Assembly (NCBI RefSeq): GCF_010501095.1
Contig: NZ_QVMP01000008.1
Span: 132,375-196,374, forward strand
Direction: 5' to 3'
DNA from: Dysgonomonas sp. 520
Lineage (GTDB): Bacteria > Bacteroidota > Bacteroidia > Bacteroidales > Dysgonomonadaceae
DNA: 64,000 nt
The notes beneath the pieces were generated by a model. The model was not told the origin of the DNA, did not search any database, and was given only the letters and a program-made list of their open reading frames with translations. Position 1 is the stretch's first letter; each line of letters opens with the position of its first letter. The position numbers were made by a program, and so were the translations under genes. Shown piece after piece: positions 16,466 through 46,355 of the stretch.

Positions 16466-16505
16466 AAAAAAAGCACCTACAAATCAAATTTGCAAGTGCT
16501 TTTTT
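16466..16505 (-). terminator. original terminator of the tRNA-Met gene
   Basis: On the minus strand AAGCAC...GTGCTT with an inner GCAAAT/ATTTG pairing is followed by TTTTTTT, directly after the 3' end of the left tRNA copy. It belongs to the host side of the integration site. Confidence 0.75.
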
Positions 16506-16606
16506 CAAGTAGCGGGACCGAGAATTGAACTCGGGACCTCATGATTATGAATCATGCGCTCTAACCATCTGAGCTATCCCGCCATGCCTTATTAGCGAGT
16601 GCAAAA
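16502..16606. repeat. left attachment repeat (105 bp)
   Basis: Identical to 32270-32374, base for base. It covers 8 bp beyond the tRNA 3' end, the whole tRNA, and 23 bp upstream of it. Confidence 0.95.
16510..16583 (-). tRNA. tRNA-Met (CAT), left copy
   Basis: 74 nt, minus strand. The acceptor GGCGGGA pairs with TCCCGCT, the D arm is GCTC/GAGC, the anticodon arm CATGA-TTCATAA-TCATG has anticodon CAT, and the T arm is CCGAG/CTCGG. CCA is not encoded. It is an elongator Met type, not initiator; a lysidine tRNA-Ile with CAT cannot be excluded. Upstream the -7 region reads CATTTTTG and not TACTTTTG, so this copy is probably weakly expressed or silent. Confidence 0.93.
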
Positions 16607-21186: not shown

Positions 21187-21852
21187 TCAATCTAGAACAT
21201 ATCTATTATACAACCTCTTAACGGCTGTTATATCGAAATTGCAACCTCGCCTTGTCCTGAATCCATTTTGATTCAATTGCTTTACAATCTCGCTCCATTT
21301 AGAGCCACCTTTTCGCATCATGGTTATAAGCGTACTTGCTTTTTTATTGGCTTCATTCGACAAAGCATTTTCTTTTCTCGTTGCACAACCTTTTGAAATA
21401 TTCTCTAGGGTTAAACCGTTATTTTTTGGATTGCCTAACTTTACGCCTTGTTTCTTTTTCTCTGCCAGAGCCTGTTTTGTTCGTTGGCTGATTAGTAAGG
21501 CTTCATTTTCAGCAATAGCACTAATAATATGAATTGTTAAACGGTTTGCAGTCGGCATATCACAGCAAACAAAATCAATATTTGATGCTTGTAAAGAAGT
21601 AATAAAATTTAAGTTCCTTGCAAGCCTATCTAACTTTGCAACTAGTAAAGTAGCATTATTGATTTTGCAACATTCTAGAGCCTTGTTTAATTGTGGTCTG
21701 TTTGCGCTTTTCCCTGTTTCTATTTCGGTAAATTCCGCAATGACAATACTATTCTTAATGTAGTTTTCTACAATGGTCTTTTGTGCTTCCAATCCTAGAC
21801 CGCTTGCACCTTGTTTCTTGGTTGAAACTCTGTAATAAATAACATATTTCAT
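21187..21852 (-). CDS. serine recombinase (resolvase/invertase family)
   Basis: 221 residues from ATG 21852 (MKYVIYYRVSTKKQ). The nucleophilic Ser is in YYRVSTKKQ (about residue 10), and the other catalytic-domain motifs LLVAKLDRLARN and AENEALLISQRTKQAL are present. A short C-terminal helix-turn-helix follows (GGSKWSEIVKQLNQNGFRTRRG). It could resolve element dimers or invert DNA. Three ~24-bp motifs starting TTGGCGAT around the gene are candidate sites. It sits in the island between the secreted-protein block and radC. Confidence 0.88.
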   Translation of the reverse strand: MKYVIYYRVSTKKQGASGLGLEAQKTIVENYIKNSIVIAEFTEIETGKSANRPQLNKALECCKINNATLLVAKLDRLARNLNFITSLQASNIDFVCCDMPTANRLTIHIISAIAENEALLISQRTKQALAEKKKQGVKLGNPKNNGLTLENISKGCATRKENALSNEANKKASTLITMMRKGGSKWSEIVKQLNQNGFRTRRGCNFDITAVKRLYNRYVLD

Positions 21853-21930
21853 AACTTTTTCTTTACTAGTAAAAAGTAGCATAACAATAACGAACGTTAT
21901 TAAAATGCCACTATTGATTAATTGACTAAA

Positions 21931-21972
21931 AATGACAAAGCCCATACTAATAAAGCATAGGCATTTGTCATT
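21931..21972 (-). terminator. hairpin after radC
   Basis: AATGACAAA (21931-21939) pairs with TTTGTCATT (21964-21972), with further GCC/GGC pairing inside; on the minus strand it is followed by T residues and lies about 40 bp past the radC stop. Confidence 0.55.
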
Positions 21973-22014: not shown

Positions 22015-22467
22015 TTATAATTTACCTTCATCCGCATAACTGTAATATGATTCGGAAGTGATAATAACATGGTCTAGTAACGATATATCCATTATTTTAC
22101 ACGCTTCTATTACTTTCCTAGTCATATTATCATCGCTTTGACTAGGGTTGAGGTTTCCGCTAGGGTGGTTGTGGCTTAATACAATTCCGCTCGCATTGCT
22201 TAATATCGCACTTTGAAGTATCAAACGAATATCGACAACGGTTTCAGATATTCCGCCCTCTGAAATATTGAACACGCCTAAAACTTGATTTGCTCGGTTT
22301 AGTAACAATACTTTGAAATATTCTCTAAACTCTATTGTATCAGCATCAAAGCAATTCAATAGTAATTTGTACACACTTTCGCTAGATAATACTTTCGGGC
22401 GTTCAGATGCCTTTTGTTTTGTCTTATACGACAATTTTACTTCATTTACGGTAAATAGATTTTCCAT
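22015..22467 (-). CDS. radC: RadC/JAB-domain protein of mobile elements
   Basis: 150 residues. The JAMM metal-binding motif is VLSHNHPSGNLNPSQSD, preceded by the conserved E in REYFKVLLLNRANQVLGV. It is the short RadC form common on Bacteroidota mobile elements, lacking the N-terminal helix-hairpin-helix. Its biochemical role is unsettled. A hairpin at 22488-22516, 21 bp before the start, may act as attenuator or terminator. Confidence 0.9.
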   Translation of the reverse strand: MENLFTVNEVKLSYKTKQKASERPKVLSSESVYKLLLNCFDADTIEFREYFKVLLLNRANQVLGVFNISEGGISETVVDIRLILQSAILSNASGIVLSHNHPSGNLNPSQSDDNMTRKVIEACKIMDISLLDHVIITSESYYSYADEGKL

Positions 22468-22516: not shown

Positions 22517-23061
22517 CGCTTGTATTTATAATTTTGTTTTATTTCTGATTAATTCTTTCTTTTAATTGACTTTTCTTGCTTCTTATTCTAGAAAAGAGTT
22601 GATATTATTAAGGTTTTAAGACAGTTTTTTCAGAGAACAAAAAATACCTAAATTTCCCTCTGTCTTTTTCTAAACCGATTCTTAAATATTTTTTGCGTGA
22701 AGGATTTATTTTTCCTTAGTCAGAGGTAGGAGGGGATATTTATCTATCTAAGCCGCCATTTATATATGATTCTTTACTTTTAATTTATGGGAAGGGGGTA
22801 TTTTTTGAGGATAGGGTTATAATTGTGAATGTATCTCATGTTTTCCTATTTTTATTCCTTATTTGACTTTTCCTTAGAAAGAGGATAGCAGAAAATAATA
22901 AGAGATTTAAGAATCATTTTTATCTAGTAAAGGATAATTTTTGATTGATATTTTGAGTTATTCTTGACCGCATTGAAAGTTTCTAAAGTCTCATGTAAAA
23001 TCTAATTGAATATTTTTTTTAAAATTTATGGATATTTTTATTAACTGTCAGTAATATTTTA
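22517..23061. other. AT-rich non-coding region with repeats
   Basis: No gene. It contains an 11-bp inverted repeat, GATTCTTAAAT (22677-22687) with ATTTAAGAATC (22905-22915), and a direct repeat, TTTTCCTTAG (22710-22719 and 22868-22877), each followed by AGAGG a few bases later. Such structure between divergent gene blocks would suit a replication or transfer origin, but nothing proves it. Confidence 0.35.
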
Positions 23062-23069
23062 TATATTTG
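23062..23069 (+). promoter_or_regulatory. -7 box of the retron transcript
   Basis: TATATTTG fits TAnnTTTG and is the last clear promoter before the structured region and the retron genes. The -33 region is only weakly recognisable. Confidence 0.5.
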
Positions 23070-23417
23070 CACCATAGTTCTTTGAAATGTGTTTTGAAAG
23101 GAAATAACTAGGTGGAGAATTTCACTTATTGTTTAATTAAAATTAAACACCCTAAAAGGGGTTTCGGGTCAAAAGCATGAAGTCGTGATGCGTAAATATG
23201 CATCATTGTATTGATTAGTAATACATTATTATTGACTTTTGACTTGATATGCTTCAATATTATTAATGAAGCAGGAATTTTAAAGAGGTGTATAGAGAAC
23301 ATTGTCTACGCACTTAGGATATTTTCCTATTCTAAGAGAATTTAATGAATAAATTGCTTGGTAATTAATGAAGCAGGAACAAGTGATTTTATTAACAAAC
23401 AATTAAATTCAATTATT
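23070..23417 (+). ncRNA. candidate retron msr-msd non-coding RNA
   Basis: About 350 bp without a gene, between a promoter and the retron operon. Visible hairpins are GTGGA-GAAT-TTCAC (23112-23125), GTTTAATT/AATTAAAC (about 23131-23148), AAACaCCC/GGGgTTT (about 23145-23164), and a long outer stem GTCAAAAG (23168-23175) with CTTTTGAC (23236-23243). The long stem encloses TGATGC/GCATCA and TGTATT/AATACA. TGCTTCA/TGAAGCA at about 23249-23273 is followed by a second similar hairpin ending in the direct repeat ATTAATGAAGCAGGAA (23262-23277 and 23364-23379). The exact msr, msd and a1/a2 ends cannot be fixed by eye; the best a1/a2 pairing seen (about 23098-23112 with 23314-23329) is weak. Confidence 0.55.
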
Positions 23418-23639
23418 ATGTCTAGATTACAAAGACTTCAAAACATCAATGGATTGATAGAAATATTGCAATCCATTGCAAAGAACCAGTGTTCTCTTTC
23501 AGAGATGGATGTTCATTTATTAAATGAGGCGATAGCTAAATTAAATAGATTGAAAATAAAAAAAGGTTTGACTAATAAACATTATCAACTAGAAATAGTG
23601 AATATTGTTGAACTCATTTTTAAGTTTTTAACTAAATAG
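23418..23639 (+). CDS. 73-residue retron-associated protein, unknown
   Basis: Starts at ATG 23418 (MSRLQRLQNINGLIEILQSIAKNQCSLSEMDVHLLNEAIAKL in two runs), giving a small, basic, almost wholly helical protein with heptad-like Leu/Ile spacing. An in-frame ATG at 23358 lies inside the structured region and is less likely. It precedes the XRE gene by 63 bp (or 9 bp if that gene starts at 23649), in the same direction. I do not recognise the family. Its position between the non-coding RNA and the reverse transcriptase suggests a role in the retron, as toxin, antitoxin or RNA partner. Confidence 0.55.
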   Translation: MSRLQRLQNINGLIEILQSIAKNQCSLSEMDVHLLNEAIAKLNRLKIKKGLTNKHYQLEIVNIVELIFKFLTK

Positions 23640-23702
23640 CTGCAAATTATGAAAACACATTTACATCCAAACATTTCTCTGACACCCTTTAATTTTTTTA
23701 AT

Positions 23703-23993
23703 ATGAATTTAGGAACAATCATAAAAAAGATGAGAAAACAACGAAGTCAAACTCAACAAGAGTTTGCCTCTAGTTGTGGTATTACTCAAACATATTTATC
23801 TCAAATAGAAAATAATAGCAAAGAACCAAATTTGTCAACCTTAAAAGAAATAAGTAAAAAACTAGACCTTCCATTGCCTATCCTTTTTTTTCTTTCCCTC
23901 ACAGAAGAAGATATTGTGCCAGAAAAAAGAAAAGCATTTGAAGAATTAAATCCATCAGTAAGAACATTGATAAATGACTTCTTCAATGTTTAG
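23703..23993 (+). CDS. XRE-family HTH protein of the retron operon
   Basis: 96 residues from ATG 23703 (MNLGTIIKKMRKQRSQTQQEFASS); an ATG at 23649 would add 18 residues. It has a classic Cro/C1 helix-turn-helix, TQQEFASSCGITQTYLSQIENN with KEPNLSTLKEISKKLDLP following. The C-terminal ~30 residues (VPEKRKAFEELNPSVRTLINDFFNV) are helical. Its end overlaps the reverse-transcriptase start by 20 bp, indicating translational coupling. HTH proteins accompany one published class of retrons; here it could be the repressor or the effector. Confidence 0.85.
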   Translation: MNLGTIIKKMRKQRSQTQQEFASSCGITQTYLSQIENNSKEPNLSTLKEISKKLDLPLPILFFLSLTEEDIVPEKRKAFEELNPSVRTLINDFFNV

Positions 23994-24828
23994 CAAAATT
24001 CATTTTCCAAGTGTAATCGGCTTTGAGGAAGTTGAATTAAAAGAATTAATCAAGTTTATTGACAATCAGTATAGAGAATGGGATGAAATCAAATTTGACA
24101 AAAAAACAAATTTTCCAAAGACATACAAGGATGGCACCATTAAGAAAAGAACAATTAGACCATCAAAAGCAAAATTAAATTTGGTTCAACGAAAAACTAG
24201 AGAATTGATTTTGTCAAAAATTGAGTTACCAACAAATGTTCACGGTGGGAGAAAAAAGCATAGTAACATAACTAATGCTAAATCACATCAAGGAAAAAAA
24301 TACATTCTTACTACTGATTTAAAGGACTTTTATCCATCTGTAAGCCATAAAACAGTTTACAATACTTTTATTGATTTGGGCTTTAATAAACAAAGTTCAT
24401 TTTATCTGACAAGATTTACAACATGGAAAAAAGAGTTGCCACAAGGAACACCAACAAGTACAGATATTTCAAATATTATTTTCTTAAAAACTGATTTAGA
24501 GCTAATAGAACTTTGTAATGAACGCCAAATAACATATACAAGGTATATCGATGACTTAACCTTTTCTGCCCCCTTTGATTTTCAAAATTCTATTAAAGAT
24601 ATTATTGATATTATAAAAGCCTCGAAATTAAAAATAAGTTGGAGAAAAACAATTTATGAAGGCAAACAAACAGTTACAGGAATAATTCCTCTTTTGAATA
24701 AAATAACTGCTCCAGAGAAAATTCTTAAAAAAGTTGAAGAAGAAAAACAATTGCCAGATAATTTTTTGAAACCATATACTAATTACAACAACAACATTAA
24801 AAAAATTAGCAAACAAAAGAAAAAATAA
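23974..24828 (+). CDS. retron reverse transcriptase
   Basis: 284 residues. It has the two motifs that separate retron RTs from group II intron and DGR enzymes: NAxxH as NAKSH (101-105) and the VTG triplet in KQTVTGIIP (234-236). The polymerase motifs are TTDLKDFYPS (about 113-122), LPQGTPTS (155-162) and the catalytic YIDD (191-194). A Lys-rich tail ends the protein. It would copy part of its own upstream RNA into msDNA linked to a 2' hydroxyl. It is translationally coupled to the XRE gene and convergent with the WG-repeat gene, whose stop is 38 bp away. Confidence 0.93.
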   Translation: MTSSMFSKIHFPSVIGFEEVELKELIKFIDNQYREWDEIKFDKKTNFPKTYKDGTIKKRTIRPSKAKLNLVQRKTRELILSKIELPTNVHGGRKKHSNITNAKSHQGKKYILTTDLKDFYPSVSHKTVYNTFIDLGFNKQSSFYLTRFTTWKKELPQGTPTSTDISNIIFLKTDLELIELCNERQITYTRYIDDLTFSAPFDFQNSIKDIIDIIKASKLKISWRKTIYEGKQTVTGIIPLLNKITAPEKILKKVEEEKQLPDNFLKPYTNYNNNIKKISKQKKK

Positions 24829-24866
24829 ATGTCCGGGACTTTTGCCTTATAAAATCCTCATATTTT

Positions 24867-26981
24867 TTAGCTAACTCTACTGTGAATTGCCATTACAGCT
24901 TCTCTCTTTGAGGAATAACTATTCCCTTTTTTGTCAATAAAACTCCATTTGTCATTCAATTTTACATCTGCTATTCCTTCGGAAAAGTTTCTAACCGATT
25001 CATATACACAAGGGATTATTTCTTTTCCCATAGCATCTATAAAACCGTATTTATATTTTAATCTAACAATTGATGAATCTTCGTCTTTGCTTAAACACTC
25101 TATTGAGTCATAAATACAAGACGTTATTTCTTCTCCTTTTATATTTAAAATCCCCCATTTATTGTTGACAGAAACAATGAATAAGTCTTTGGTATAGAAT
25201 CTAGTTTCAGCATATATAAAAGGACTTAAATTATTGCCTTCTTTATCTATTAGACCATATTTCCCATTTTGTTTTGCAAAAAACACCCCATCCCCAAGCT
25301 GTACACTTTCATAGATAAATGAAACCTCTATGTTTTTCTTTTTGCAGTTCAAAATCCCATACTTACCATTCAATCCAACTATAAATATTCCATCTGCAAG
25401 TTGTCGAGAAATTCTATCATAAACAATAGGGATAACTTCCTGTCCATTTTTATCAATACATCCAACTTTTTTATTTAAAACAACAATAGCTATTCCATCT
25501 TGAAAAGATCTTCTAAGAATAAATTTTAACTTCATCTTCTCTCGTCCTTGAGGAATCTCTGTTCTTATAGGGGCATCATATATTATGGGGATATGAGTAG
25601 ATACCCCGATTTTTATGGGGTCGTAAATATTGGGAATAATCAAAGTTTCAGTTTTATCAATATAGCCTATTTTAGAATCTTTCACAACTAAAGCTAAACC
25701 TTCTGAAAAAGCTCCTGCAAATTCATATTGTAAAGGAATAATGATTTTCCCTGTTTCATCTATATAACCCAATTTTCCATTTTTACCCACTAATGCTAAA
25801 CCTTCTGAAAAAGGATAAATACTGTCAAAACCATCACAGATTTCTTCTCCTTCTCTTGAAATACAGCCATAATTCCAATAATAATATGCTGTACGTATAG
25901 TACCAGTATAGACTTTTCTACCAACTATTGCTAATCCATTCTTGAAAGATTCAACGTAATCGTATTTACATGGAATAACTCCTCTTCCCTTTGTATTTAT
26001 AAAACCATATTTATCATCTCTTTTTACAATAGCCATCCCTTCTGAAAAAGGTTGAGCAAAATCATATATACAAGGGATTACTTCTTTACCCGTTTTGTCA
26101 ATAAAGCCATATTTTTCATTTGAATCTATAACAAAAAGTTTTTTATTAAAACTTTCCTTCTCAGTATATTTCTTTAAATCTGGTTTTGAATCATCTAGAA
26201 TGAAATAATCAAATATTTTATCATCTTCTTTTGATTTAGGATAATATCTTTCGGGAAATCCAAATTCATCTTCAAAATTAAAACCATAATCATGATCTAC
26301 ATTTGTAAGCCATTCACATATTTTCGGATTAGCATAAAAATTTATTTCTGAAATTTGAAACTCATCTTGTATGAATTTGAATAGATCATCTATTGTTTTG
26401 AATTTCTCTGTATTAGGATGCTTGTCATTAATATATCTACGTTGGTAGAAAAAACACTGCTGCTGATGTGAATATCTGAAATTTGATCGGTACTTAAAAT
26501 GTAATATATAAAAGTCGATATATTCTCTGATTTGTTTATAGTTAAACTTTCTCCCCCAATCGCATTTTCTACCTAAACGGTTGAAAAAATGTTCGGCAGT
26601 ATATTTAATAGTATTTTCAATAGTTTTAGTATTCTTGATAAGAACTAATATATTCCAGTTTTCTTTTGTTTGTGGAGAATTTACATTTTGATATTTTTCA
26701 ATAACTAGATCAACAAAAGGAGAAAAAATTGTTCTTATAGCCTTTTTATAACATTTTCCTCTTTCTTCTGGGGTAAGTGTGTCTAAACTATCAGGACGAT
26801 AATCATCTAAGCAATATTTTGTTTCTATTTTATTAAATACCTTGTTGTAACAAGTAAATGGATTGATTGTATCGGATTGATATATGTTCAAATCAATGAT
26901 TGCTTTAATATCTAGTGCTGTCAATAAAGCATCCCAAGAATTTATATTAATAACAGTTGGGTCAATACAATAGAAGTTCAT
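24867..26981 (-). CDS. large WG-repeat protein of the island
   Basis: 704 residues. The N-terminal ~280 are helical, without a signal peptide and not recognised. From about residue 285 to the end run roughly ten WG (Trp-Gly type) beta repeats of the form KYGFIDKTGKEVIPCIYD-x-x-x-FSEGMAIV. Such repeats occur in Bacteroidota envelope and repeat-cargo proteins, and their ligands are mostly unknown. It is transcribed towards the retron and lies alone between hairpins at 27048-27165 and the retron end. An independent cargo or defence role is possible but unproven. Confidence 0.8.
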   Translation of the reverse strand: MNFYCIDPTVININSWDALLTALDIKAIIDLNIYQSDTINPFTCYNKVFNKIETKYCLDDYRPDSLDTLTPEERGKCYKKAIRTIFSPFVDLVIEKYQNVNSPQTKENWNILVLIKNTKTIENTIKYTAEHFFNRLGRKCDWGRKFNYKQIREYIDFYILHFKYRSNFRYSHQQQCFFYQRRYINDKHPNTEKFKTIDDLFKFIQDEFQISEINFYANPKICEWLTNVDHDYGFNFEDEFGFPERYYPKSKEDDKIFDYFILDDSKPDLKKYTEKESFNKKLFVIDSNEKYGFIDKTGKEVIPCIYDFAQPFSEGMAIVKRDDKYGFINTKGRGVIPCKYDYVESFKNGLAIVGRKVYTGTIRTAYYYWNYGCISREGEEICDGFDSIYPFSEGLALVGKNGKLGYIDETGKIIIPLQYEFAGAFSEGLALVVKDSKIGYIDKTETLIIPNIYDPIKIGVSTHIPIIYDAPIRTEIPQGREKMKLKFILRRSFQDGIAIVVLNKKVGCIDKNGQEVIPIVYDRISRQLADGIFIVGLNGKYGILNCKKKNIEVSFIYESVQLGDGVFFAKQNGKYGLIDKEGNNLSPFIYAETRFYTKDLFIVSVNNKWGILNIKGEEITSCIYDSIECLSKDEDSSIVRLKYKYGFIDAMGKEIIPCVYESVRNFSEGIADVKLNDKWSFIDKKGNSYSSKREAVMAIHSRVS

Positions 26982-30953: not shown

Positions 30954-32174
30954 CTAGAGTAAATTCTTCATTGCTTCGTCAATTTGTGAGTTTTCAAAGC
31001 TGTCTAAATAGATTTGAGTAACTTTTTCAGAACTATGTCCTAAAGATTCACTAATTATAGAAGTATTGACACCAGAACGTTTTAAAACGGTCGCAAATGA
31101 ATGTCTTGCAACATAGGTTGTTAAATTAATAGGTAACTCCAAATATTCTCCAATCTTTTGTAAGCATTTATTCATTTTTTTGGCAAACTTGCGAATACGG
31201 TAATGTTGTTGTAACTCTGTTTTGTGAATGCTATTGTTATATATAGGAAACAGATATTTATTGTCAGAAGTTTGATATTTTTCGATTAACTCTAAAGCCT
31301 TTGGCTGTAAAGAAAAAGAAATCGGTTTGCCTGTCTTATGTCGATTATATACAATTCGATTATTTTCTATGTTCTCTTTAGTTAAATATGCTATGTCAAT
31401 AAGATTGATTCCACAACCAAGATAACTAAAAACAAAAAGATCTCGACTCAACTCTAAAAGATTGCTCTGATAGTTGTTGATTGCTGTAATGTCTAAATTG
31501 ACTATTGCGTTCATATCCGACTTTGTAATGGCTCTTTTCTTTGTAACAGACTTTAGCTTACTTACCTTGAAGTCATTAAAAGGATAGTAATCTTTCTTGA
31601 CAATATTATCGTCAATTGCTCTATTATATATTGCCCTCAATGCTCTGAAACGAACACCCATTGTATTTTCGGAATTGCCATTATTGCGCATCCACGATTC
31701 ATATTTCTTTAACCACGCAACATCAATTTCTGAAAATAAAATATCCAAATTACCGCCAAAAGTTTTCATTGAATTAAGAGCAAACTTGAACGAATTAGCG
31801 TTGCCAATTCGCTTCTCCTTTATCATCAATTCAATTATTTGATTGAAATAATTTTCAACTGTAATCTTTTTTATTGGCTTATGAACCGACTCAATTAGTT
31901 TACTTGCAGAAAAGTCTTTTTCAATAGATTGAAACTCTAATACTTGTTTTCGATATTCGACAGATTTTTGTTCTATAATATTTAGAATCAAATCTTTATT
32001 AGGGCAGTTTGTTTTTGGCTTGTTCTTCTCAAAATCCCAATTCTCTGCTTTTACAGAGATTCCAATACTTAAATAACGTCTTTTTCGGTCTTTCGTAACA
32101 CGTAGCATCAGAGGATGTTCGTTGTTTTTCAATACTTTAGACTTGTAGCAGATAACATCAATTGTTGCACTCAT
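30954..32174 (-). CDS. tyrosine integrase of the tRNA-Met element
   Basis: 406 residues. An N-terminal arm-binding domain (VICYKSKVLKNNEHPLMLRVTKDRKRRYLSIG) is followed by a SAM-like core-binding domain (about 110-200) and the catalytic domain. Visible catalytic residues are Lys in NRHKTGKPISF, Arg in TYVARHSFAT, His in LGHSSEK and the nucleophile in QIYLDSF. The first Arg position reads SYLGCGINLID, so the canonical Arg I is missing, as in the IntDOT group. Its start codon touches the right arm-type sites, suggesting self-regulation. Confidence 0.92.
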   Translation of the reverse strand: MSATIDVICYKSKVLKNNEHPLMLRVTKDRKRRYLSIGISVKAENWDFEKNKPKTNCPNKDLILNIIEQKSVEYRKQVLEFQSIEKDFSASKLIESVHKPIKKITVENYFNQIIELMIKEKRIGNANSFKFALNSMKTFGGNLDILFSEIDVAWLKKYESWMRNNGNSENTMGVRFRALRAIYNRAIDDNIVKKDYYPFNDFKVSKLKSVTKKRAITKSDMNAIVNLDITAINNYQSNLLELSRDLFVFSYLGCGINLIDIAYLTKENIENNRIVYNRHKTGKPISFSLQPKALELIEKYQTSDNKYLFPIYNNSIHKTELQQHYRIRKFAKKMNKCLQKIGEYLELPINLTTYVARHSFATVLKRSGVNTSIISESLGHSSEKVTQIYLDSFENSQIDEAMKNLL

Positions 32175-32269: not shown

Positions 32270-32374
32270 TTTTCAAGTAGCGGGACCGAGAATTGAACTC
32301 GGGACCTCATGATTATGAATCATGCGCTCTAACCATCTGAGCTATCCCGCCATGCCTTATTAGCGAGTGCAAAA
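32270..32374. repeat. right attachment repeat (105 bp)
   Basis: Identical to 16502-16606; it marks the junction of the element with host sequence upstream of recR. Confidence 0.95.
32278..32351 (-). tRNA. tRNA-Met (CAT), right copy
   Basis: Identical 74-nt gene to the left copy. It retains the host promoter (TTG, 20-bp spacer, TACTTTTG at 32370-32400), so this is the likely functional copy, restored at its 3' end by the element. Confidence 0.93.
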
Positions 32375-45885: not shown

Positions 45886-45970
45886 CGAAACAAACAACTC
45901 ACAATCAACCACATATGACTTTATTGTGAAAATTTGACCTTTTACCTAATTAAGATTTGAATTATTATTT

Positions 45971-45978
45971 TACCTTTG
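45971..45978 (+). promoter_or_regulatory. -7 box of the btuB leader
   Basis: TACCTTTG fits TAnnTTTG and lies just before the cobalamin riboswitch. The stretch from mfd to here has no gene. Confidence 0.55.
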
Positions 45979-45993
45979 CGACAGCTTTGTTCC

Positions 45994-46250
45994 TACATTT
46001 ATAGGATTGAAAGGGAATCAGGTGAAAATCCTGAACAGACCCGCTGCTGTAAGCTCTTTTCGGTTAGAAGTTAACAATTATCAGTTAACAATAACGTGAA
46101 AAAGTCTTTGAACAAAATTAAAAACCACTGACGGACAGTCGTCAGTTATCAGAATCGACTCTTTTGTTGACTGTTAGCTGCTCACTTTTAACTGAATGTT
46201 GGGAAGGATATTCGAAGATGGAGTAAGTCAGAAGACCTGCAAAGTTTTAG
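45994..46250 (+). promoter_or_regulatory. cobalamin (B12) riboswitch
   Basis: The conserved core GGGAATCAGGTGAAAATCC and ACAGACCCGCTGCTGTAAGC lies at about 46013-46055, and the closing B12 box GTCAGAAGACCTGC at 46227-46240. The ~165 nt between these core parts are longer than usual and contain GTTAAC-rich repeats. It controls the btuB-btuG transcript, lowering expression when cobalamin is plentiful. Confidence 0.9.
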
Positions 46251-46355
46251 TTTTTAAACGCTTTCGAGGAATAAAGCTGAAAACTGTTTTGAACACCAGG
46301 TCCGAAAAGACTATCTCTTCAAACGGCTATCAATTTGGTCATCCAAATTTCTTTG

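Follow-up and report, generated by a model that had tools for sequence, protein, structure and literature searches.

The msr-msd RNA of the retron Ec86 (Eco1) is bounded by the segments a1 and a2. Type VI retrons are hardly mentioned in the literature that we searched, the phrase 'type VI retron' occurring in PMC8541194. Repeat synthesis by DRT10 requires identical A and A' segments and returns when both are changed alike (PMC12632851); with a B segment of 10 nucleotides (nt) activity was weak, and with 20 nt there was none. We analysed a 64,000-nt stretch of Dysgonomonas sp. 520 (contig NZ_QVMP01000008.1, positions 132,375 to 196,374; hereafter the window, whose own numbering is used), in which positions 23070-23417 precede the genes of a type VI retron. 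A 7-nt tag occurs twice in this region (R1 and R2), and among relatives its two copies are equal within a locus and different between loci.

Directly 3' of 23070-23417 lie three co-directional genes on the plus strand, encoding a 73-amino-acid small protein, SP (23418-23639, stop included), an XRE-type helix-turn-helix (HTH) protein (23649-23993; Pfam HTH_3) and a retron reverse transcriptase (RT; 23974-24828). The best PADLOC matches of these adjacent genes were SP_VI (1.1e-26), HTH_VI (1.8e-29) and RT_VI (3.6e-65), the gene trio of type VI. The RT contained NAKSH, YIDD and VTG, in agreement with YxDD and the retron RT motifs NAxxH and VTG. N-A-H, DD and TG were invariant, and V was not, across the ten RTs of an alignment (A1). 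The best 25 of its 57 PADLOC matches were all retron RT models, its nearest solved relative by sequence was the retron Ec86 RT (8e-25), and a search of its own genome gave the window RT as the single match. Membership of the DRT10 family was not indicated, since RT_VI was the best PADLOC match, with no DRT10 model compared by name. Because it lies upstream of SP, HTH and RT genes matching the PADLOC type VI models, 23070-23417 very probably comprises a type VI msr-msd RNA together with the leader of SP. We have high confidence in the corresponding anatomy, namely a type VI retron's template RNA and the 5' leader of its operon.

Relatives came from a genome scan (best 80 of 126 loci kept), from a search with the SP_VI model (24 loci, the window's own included, several of them on contigs already found or without an RT), and as further loci from viral contigs (four) and plasmids (two). 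On viral contigs, the scan for close relatives yielded none and the scan with alignment A1 four. Twelve loci duplicating the window or another locus were dropped. There were 81 non-duplicate loci (window included) with SP and RT matches, and 79 were used, since L049 and L050, whose 5' part was missing or different, were dropped before the repeat search. When the 79 leaders were searched blindly for exact repeats spaced 50-115 nt apart, the longest was in most cases one and the same element, its copy 1 just 5' of a conserved hairpin and its copy 2 in a leader hairpin (P2). The 7-nt core of this element was alignable as a pair in 76 of the 79 loci, with the core placed by hand in 11 of them; in the window both cores read AAGCAGG (R1, 23269-23275; R2, 23371-23377). 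Across the 76 loci, each core position (-7 to -1) was equal within the locus in 95-100%, compared with 36-82% expected. Position -8 was equal in 68% (31% expected), and positions -10, -9, 0, +1 and +2 were near chance. All seven core nucleotides were equal in 67 loci, and the identity of R1 and R2 over 10-mers was 8.39 within loci versus 5.44 (S.D. 0.15) when permuted. The letters themselves drifted, the R1 copies comprising 39 distinct octamers, with octamers equal between copies in 48 loci. The two copies lay 61-73 nt apart in 56 loci, within a full range of 61-113 nt. An A-B-A' identity of the DRT10 type was thus present in the noncoding RNA (ncRNA).

Since the cores had been placed on the repeats, a placement-free test was added. 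Two fixed regions had in common a longest word of 8.43 on average when taken from one locus and of 6.28 when taken from different loci (79 loci), and the best of 10,000 permutations reached 6.84. Moreover, when changes were mapped by parsimony on an RT tree (quick method), 66 of 76 inferred R1 changes were also found in R2 on the same branch, although the 76 are not independent events because changes at neighbouring positions may be one event. At six flanking positions 12 of 132 changes were matched on the same branch, 7 of those 12 at -8. Four divergent Bacteroidales loci (L027, L081, L088 and L103, from Bacteroides, Parabacteroides and Alistipes), which hold the leader motif TTCTTTGA without an SP or HTH profile match, had not been used in the earlier tag tests. 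Their layout was that of the other loci, and their tags were equal but differently spelled (GGCACGTG, GGACATG in two loci, and GGCATGG), 69-73 nt apart; L027, L081 and L103 came from the automatic list, and L088 was found by eye. In the rest of the 13 RT loci without an SP match, no tag element was seen by informal inspection, two of them having too little upstream sequence. Together, these comparisons among relatives showed that R1 and R2 evolve in concert. The remaining reading, an ordinary retron leader in which the repeat is a local duplication or a chance similarity, agrees with the weak single-locus p values (33 of 79 below 0.05) and is very improbable given the joint tests over loci and the four further loci, the shared-word and same-branch tests already speaking against it for the family.

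Two other accounts of the tag were set aside. Target-site duplication failed because a2, which lies between the copies, co-varies with a1 outside them. Pairing of R elsewhere in the ncRNA gave no general explanation, though the upstream arm pairs with R1: of the 76 loci, L076 alone had a complete 7-nt RNA complement to the core in its ncRNA, and the longest complement averaged 4.20, compared with 4.10 for the cores of other loci. A genome search for AAGCAGG pairs at a gap of 40-70, which excludes the window's own pair, found 3 places versus 5 in the reversed control.

We then turn to the RNA in which the tags are embedded. An a1/a2 inverted repeat (23100-23114 and 23311-23327) closes the msr-msd RNA, as in retrons, and in the window it can form 14 pairs around a 1x2 internal loop (-12.2 kcal/mol). 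The original prediction had seen no obvious strong a1/a2 pairing. This was right by eye and for the minimum free energy (MFE) fold, which lacks a1:a2 and in which forcing the inner 7 pairs cost about 10 kcal/mol (-79.7 versus -89.3, 23073-23420), but the comparison of relatives revealed the pair. In a swap test of 70 of the 76 loci (those without TTCTTTGA were excluded from the a1 tests, with 69 in the count of a2 sharing below), the mean energy of a locus's own a1:a2 was -17.25 kcal/mol versus -10.05 when swapped, with -11.46 the best of 5000 permutations, and own partners were better than those of the nearest RT neighbour in 53 loci and worse in 12. An msr control of this test had no effect (p=0.87), nor had msr against the leader (p=0.23). 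A third control, a1 against the leader, gave -9.17 versus -8.49 (p=0.011), with 33 loci better and 33 worse than their neighbours; a gain of this order is therefore no sign of pairing. Similarly, when 40 loci were aligned gap-free on sequence anchors, standard pairs made up 86.9% over nine a1:a2 columns versus 26-48% in six slid registers, and each column held 2-6 pair types. Comparison thus showed that the a1:a2 pairing exists, with compensatory change in relatives.

Between a1 and a2 lie, in order, two msr hairpins, the msd stem, the R1 hairpin and a strongly conserved hairpin. The msr hairpins (TGTTTAAT/ATTAAACA and CCCTAAAAGGGG, 23129-23161) belong to the MFE fold, and hairpins were seen here by eye in homologues. 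The long msd stem (23168-23243) has two inner hairpins, and its sequence and length vary among homologues. The 3' arm of the R1 hairpin TGCTTC...GAAGCA (23250-23273) takes in part of repeat copy 1; in the family, too, R1 usually lies partly inside a 3' hairpin arm and not downstream of the hairpin. The conserved hairpin GTGTATAGA..TCTACGCAC (23288-23313), just 5' of a2 and overlapping it by its last 3 nt, is among the most conserved stretches and is likely the zone in which complementary DNA (cDNA) would start. The GAG right after a1 (23115-23117) holds the candidate branch G, a position which we assume from known retrons.

Downstream of a2, the leader hairpin P2 pairs 23334-23346 imperfectly with 23402-23414, and in the fold of the window an inner stem (23351-23360 with 23380-23389) presents R2 in a 19-nt loop. 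Restricted to sequence 5' of the start codon, the P2 arms gave -16.39 with their own partners versus -9.66 when swapped (75 loci), better than the nearest neighbour in 55 loci and worse in 16. At least four pairs enclosed R2 in 69 of 75 loci, compared with 67% when the flanks were shuffled. The paired probability of the R2 core was 0.39, as against 0.58 in shuffled surroundings; copy 2 tends to sit in the loop of this second hairpin. A further alignment of the 3' domain (A2) covered 24 of 27 reference loci, with L101, L063 and L071 left out. In it, a structure of P2 and the conserved hairpin, named from rows L037 and L004, was paired in 80.0% of cells versus 30.3-50.3% when slid, and had 29 cells with two-sided change versus 12.7 shuffled. 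Pairs with two-sided change (6 versus 4.6) and pair types (21 versus 21.2) were not above shuffles, and the conserved hairpin, helix 1 of this structure, had no pair with two-sided change. P2, like a1:a2, was shown by comparison of loci.

The original prediction had described the region as highly structured, and 23070-23417 indeed folded to -87.9 kcal/mol compared with a shuffle mean of -61.4 (S.D. 5.0), which is 5.3 S.D. better than 100 shuffles, none of which was as good (z -5.3). The 16-bp direct repeat ATTAATGAAGCAGGAA that it had pointed out lies at 23262-23277 and 23364-23379, 102 bp from start to start, each copy preceded by TGCTT (23250-23254 and 23355-23359). Among 200 dinucleotide-shuffled versions of the 200-nt leader, none contained a repeat of this length within the places searched (p=0.005). 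The long stem GTCAAAAG (23168-23175) with CTTTTGAC (23236-23243) was paired in the MFE fold and encloses two stems, and only one repeat copy belongs to the msr-msd, copy 1 lying inside the msd and copy 2 downstream of a2. A real repeat had also been read as two copies of one hairpin, but the conserved repeated unit is the 7-nt core and not the hairpin; in the window, the length beyond this core may be a local duplication. The suggestion that this is a retron RNA agrees with the type VI genes downstream and with the compensatory changes among homologues, which the earlier account had proposed to look for and which were seen in a1:a2 and in the P2 counts. Rfam gave no match to 23070-23417 at the gathering threshold, and a relaxed search of 22900-25000 gave sn2343 at 23311-23385, which at 15.7 versus 60 bits we judged to be chance.

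Copies whose letters drift but remain equal call for a shared partner or some step of copying, and the reverse transcript of R1 would be the simplest partner because it is complementary to R2 whatever the letters. In the mechanism that we propose, a1 and a2 close the msr-msd fold, and the RT would start near a2 and copy the conserved hairpin, R1 and then the variable msd stem. R2 sits 3' of a2 in P2, where the cDNA copy of R1 could base-pair with it, and R1 and R2 would in this way stay equal within the locus. Pairing of R1 cDNA with R2 might set the nascent cDNA back for a further copying round, the A-B-A' scheme of DRT10 and telomerase. Alternatively, the finished multicopy single-stranded DNA (msDNA) might dock on the leader through R2 and couple msDNA to SP expression. 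Judged from sequence comparison, annealing of R1 cDNA to R2, either re-priming the RT or docking msDNA on the leader, has in our estimate about an even chance; we infer the start and end points of the cDNA, its pairing and the consequence of that pairing. Docking of msDNA on the R2 loop fits the standard retron fold better than A-B-A' re-priming does, and one targeted literature search found no precedent for such docking on a leader. We doubt the stronger form, in which a type VI RT copies R1-B, after which the end of the cDNA anneals anew at R2 and is elongated once more, giving tandem-repeat DNA in a telomerase-like way; if it held, the repeat unit would measure 102 nt in the window but 61-73 nt in most of its relatives.

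Several points weigh against cDNA pairing or the tag evidence beneath it. Nine of the 76 loci lacked full equality of the 7-nt core, three of the 79 (L008, L042 and L099) could not be aligned to the tag pattern, and the core positions were chosen after the repeats were seen. The single-locus repeat reached p<0.05 in only 33 of the 79 loci, and in the fixed-region test the gains over the nearest RT neighbour were modest (38 better, 30 equal, 11 worse). RNAalifold found 0 pairs in A2, and the arm upstream of R1 also pairs somewhat better with the locus's own R2 than with swapped R2 (-5.34 versus -4.42). The B segment here is about 54-106 nt and contains a2; the retron-type RT, the longer B and a2 inside it tell against a straight transfer of DRT10 logic. 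A coevolving protein could also keep both sites equal.

An RNA switch without cDNA is unlikely in our view. P2 and the retron fold would compete for a2, and R2 would act as an RNA decoy dividing the transcript between msDNA and the translation of SP; either R1 or R2 may be bound by the arm that lies upstream of R1. Predicted a1:a2 and P2 shared at least five a2 bases in 60 of 69 loci, or 87% versus 67% with random-locus partners (at most 77% in 20 trials). The swap gain of P2 and its covariation counts agree with this explanation, as does the upstream arm, which beats swaps with R1 (-6.24 versus -4.58, 76 loci) and, as given above, with R2. However, R1 and R2 were equal in 10 of 11 loci with a weakly pairing R1 arm, and the equality extends to core positions usually outside the arm stem. 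The window has no overlap at a2, and the start codon region was paired at 0.64 versus 0.57 in shuffled leaders, a small difference. Since random-locus partners already reach 67%, sharing of a2 is only partly specific, and a switch by shared a2 bases is possible within the family. The regulatory switch suggested by the original prediction is weakly supported for the family on this count, whereas geometry alone gives 67% and the window shares none. A switch by shared a2 bases was set aside as mostly geometry. Sequestration of the start codon by P2, which was found in individual duplexes and was weak overall, was set aside as well.

Alternatively, R1 and R2 could both bind the same protein, be it the RT, the HTH protein or SP, and stay equal because they co-evolve with it. 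The similar spacing in 56 of 76 loci, the hairpins beside both copies and the co-encoded HTH and SP would suit such sites. The 39 distinct octamers in 76 loci and the changes on the same branch would demand a change of protein each time, and the pair is retained in L027, L081, L088 and L103, which match neither the SP nor the HTH profile. We consider this explanation improbable. Annealing of R1 cDNA to R2 remains our preferred reading. A 7-nt tag that is kept twice, equal within systems and different between them, is a strong and testable sign of a reverse transcript pairing with its own RNA. The tag pair moreover allows exact and cheap mutants for type VI DNA synthesis and small-protein control.

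Upstream of the RNA, a putative promoter (23041-23069, plus strand) consists of TTAACTGTCAG (23041-23051) and TATATTTG (23062-23069), the latter presumably a -7 element of the Bacteroidota type, and is kept with small changes in close homologues; the transcription start site of the retron RNA would lie downstream of TATATTTG. Exact TTCTTTGA was present in 72 of 81 leaders, and TAnnTTTG lay at most 30 nt upstream in 61 of these 72. In the window it belongs to AGTTCTTTGA (23076-23085), at the presumed 5' end of the RNA. A boxA-like role for AGTTCTTTGA is possible by analogy, because the organism's own 16S leader and 16S-23S spacer both hold GATCTTTGA. The SP profile starts at codon 5 in most loci, with an ATG 12 nt earlier in 52 of 76. 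An AlphaFold2 model of SP had a mean pLDDT of 90.7, and SP is confidently predicted to be a three-helix protein; a fold search gave no PDB match at E<=0.001, and the best match in a profile search had E 0.18.

Of 94 non-duplicate RT-bearing loci, 78 had the gene order SP, HTH, RT, and the SP model matched in 11 of 395 genomes drawn from the phylum, the own genome included. Among the best 80 of 126 scanned loci, the closest relative was a Flavobacterium metagenome-assembled genome (RT 75%). L027, L081, L088 and L103, which carry another small protein (Lys-rich by eye in L027), are perhaps a sister type. Two Riemerella loci, L026 (2150-2440 on plasmid pRCAD0416RA-1) and L049 (R. columbipharyngis), have type VI genes without upstream TTCTTTGA. 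The L026 genes are preceded by an IS4351 transposase gene, and the 5' part of their ncRNA is apparently missing; in L049 an R2-like stretch is kept and R1 was not seen.

In the window, a perfect 105-bp direct repeat with tRNA-Met(CAT) (16502-16606 and 32270-32374) bounds about 15.7 kb with the retron, and a tyrosine integrase gene (30954-32174) adjoins one copy; this segment is an integrated island. The retron is preceded, on the other strand, by genes for a resolvase-type recombinase (21187-21945) and a RadC-like JAB domain protein (22015-22467). Directly behind the RT gene, on the opposite strand, is the gene for a 704-amino-acid protein with WG beta repeats (24867-26981). A cobalamin riboswitch (76.8 bits) is located at 45970-46258.

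The twin tag and the leader hairpin were not described in the full-text literature searched on type VI retrons and retron RNA repeats, a search that did not extend to the 2020 retron classification or the 2024 retron census, and their novelty is provisional to that extent. The locus shares its three genes with the type VI retrons of PADLOC, with model matches of 1e-26 to 1e-65. It differs from Ec86 in the second hairpin that follows a2 with a copy of an msd segment. In DRT2 a repeated motif likewise flanks the possible template and the cDNA is concatemeric (PMC12039810), but there is no general open frame through a concatemer here: such a frame was stop-free in 16 of 76 loci, with the unit lengths distributed 23/27/26 modulo 3, and a DRT2-like concatemer reading frame was rejected. 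The likeness to DRT10 (PMC12632851) consists of two equal short ncRNA segments, the letters of which vary between systems, with copy 1 beside a stem-loop. In contrast, the window RT belongs to the retron type VI family, and B is about 10 times or more the 5 nt of Eco3DRT10 (PMC12632851) and contains a2. DRT10 makes tandem-repeat DNA, which for the present system is a prediction of the re-priming reading. If the proposed pairing is true, it would either link retrons with the DRT enzymes that synthesize repeats or uncover a leader able to sense the msDNA of its own system.
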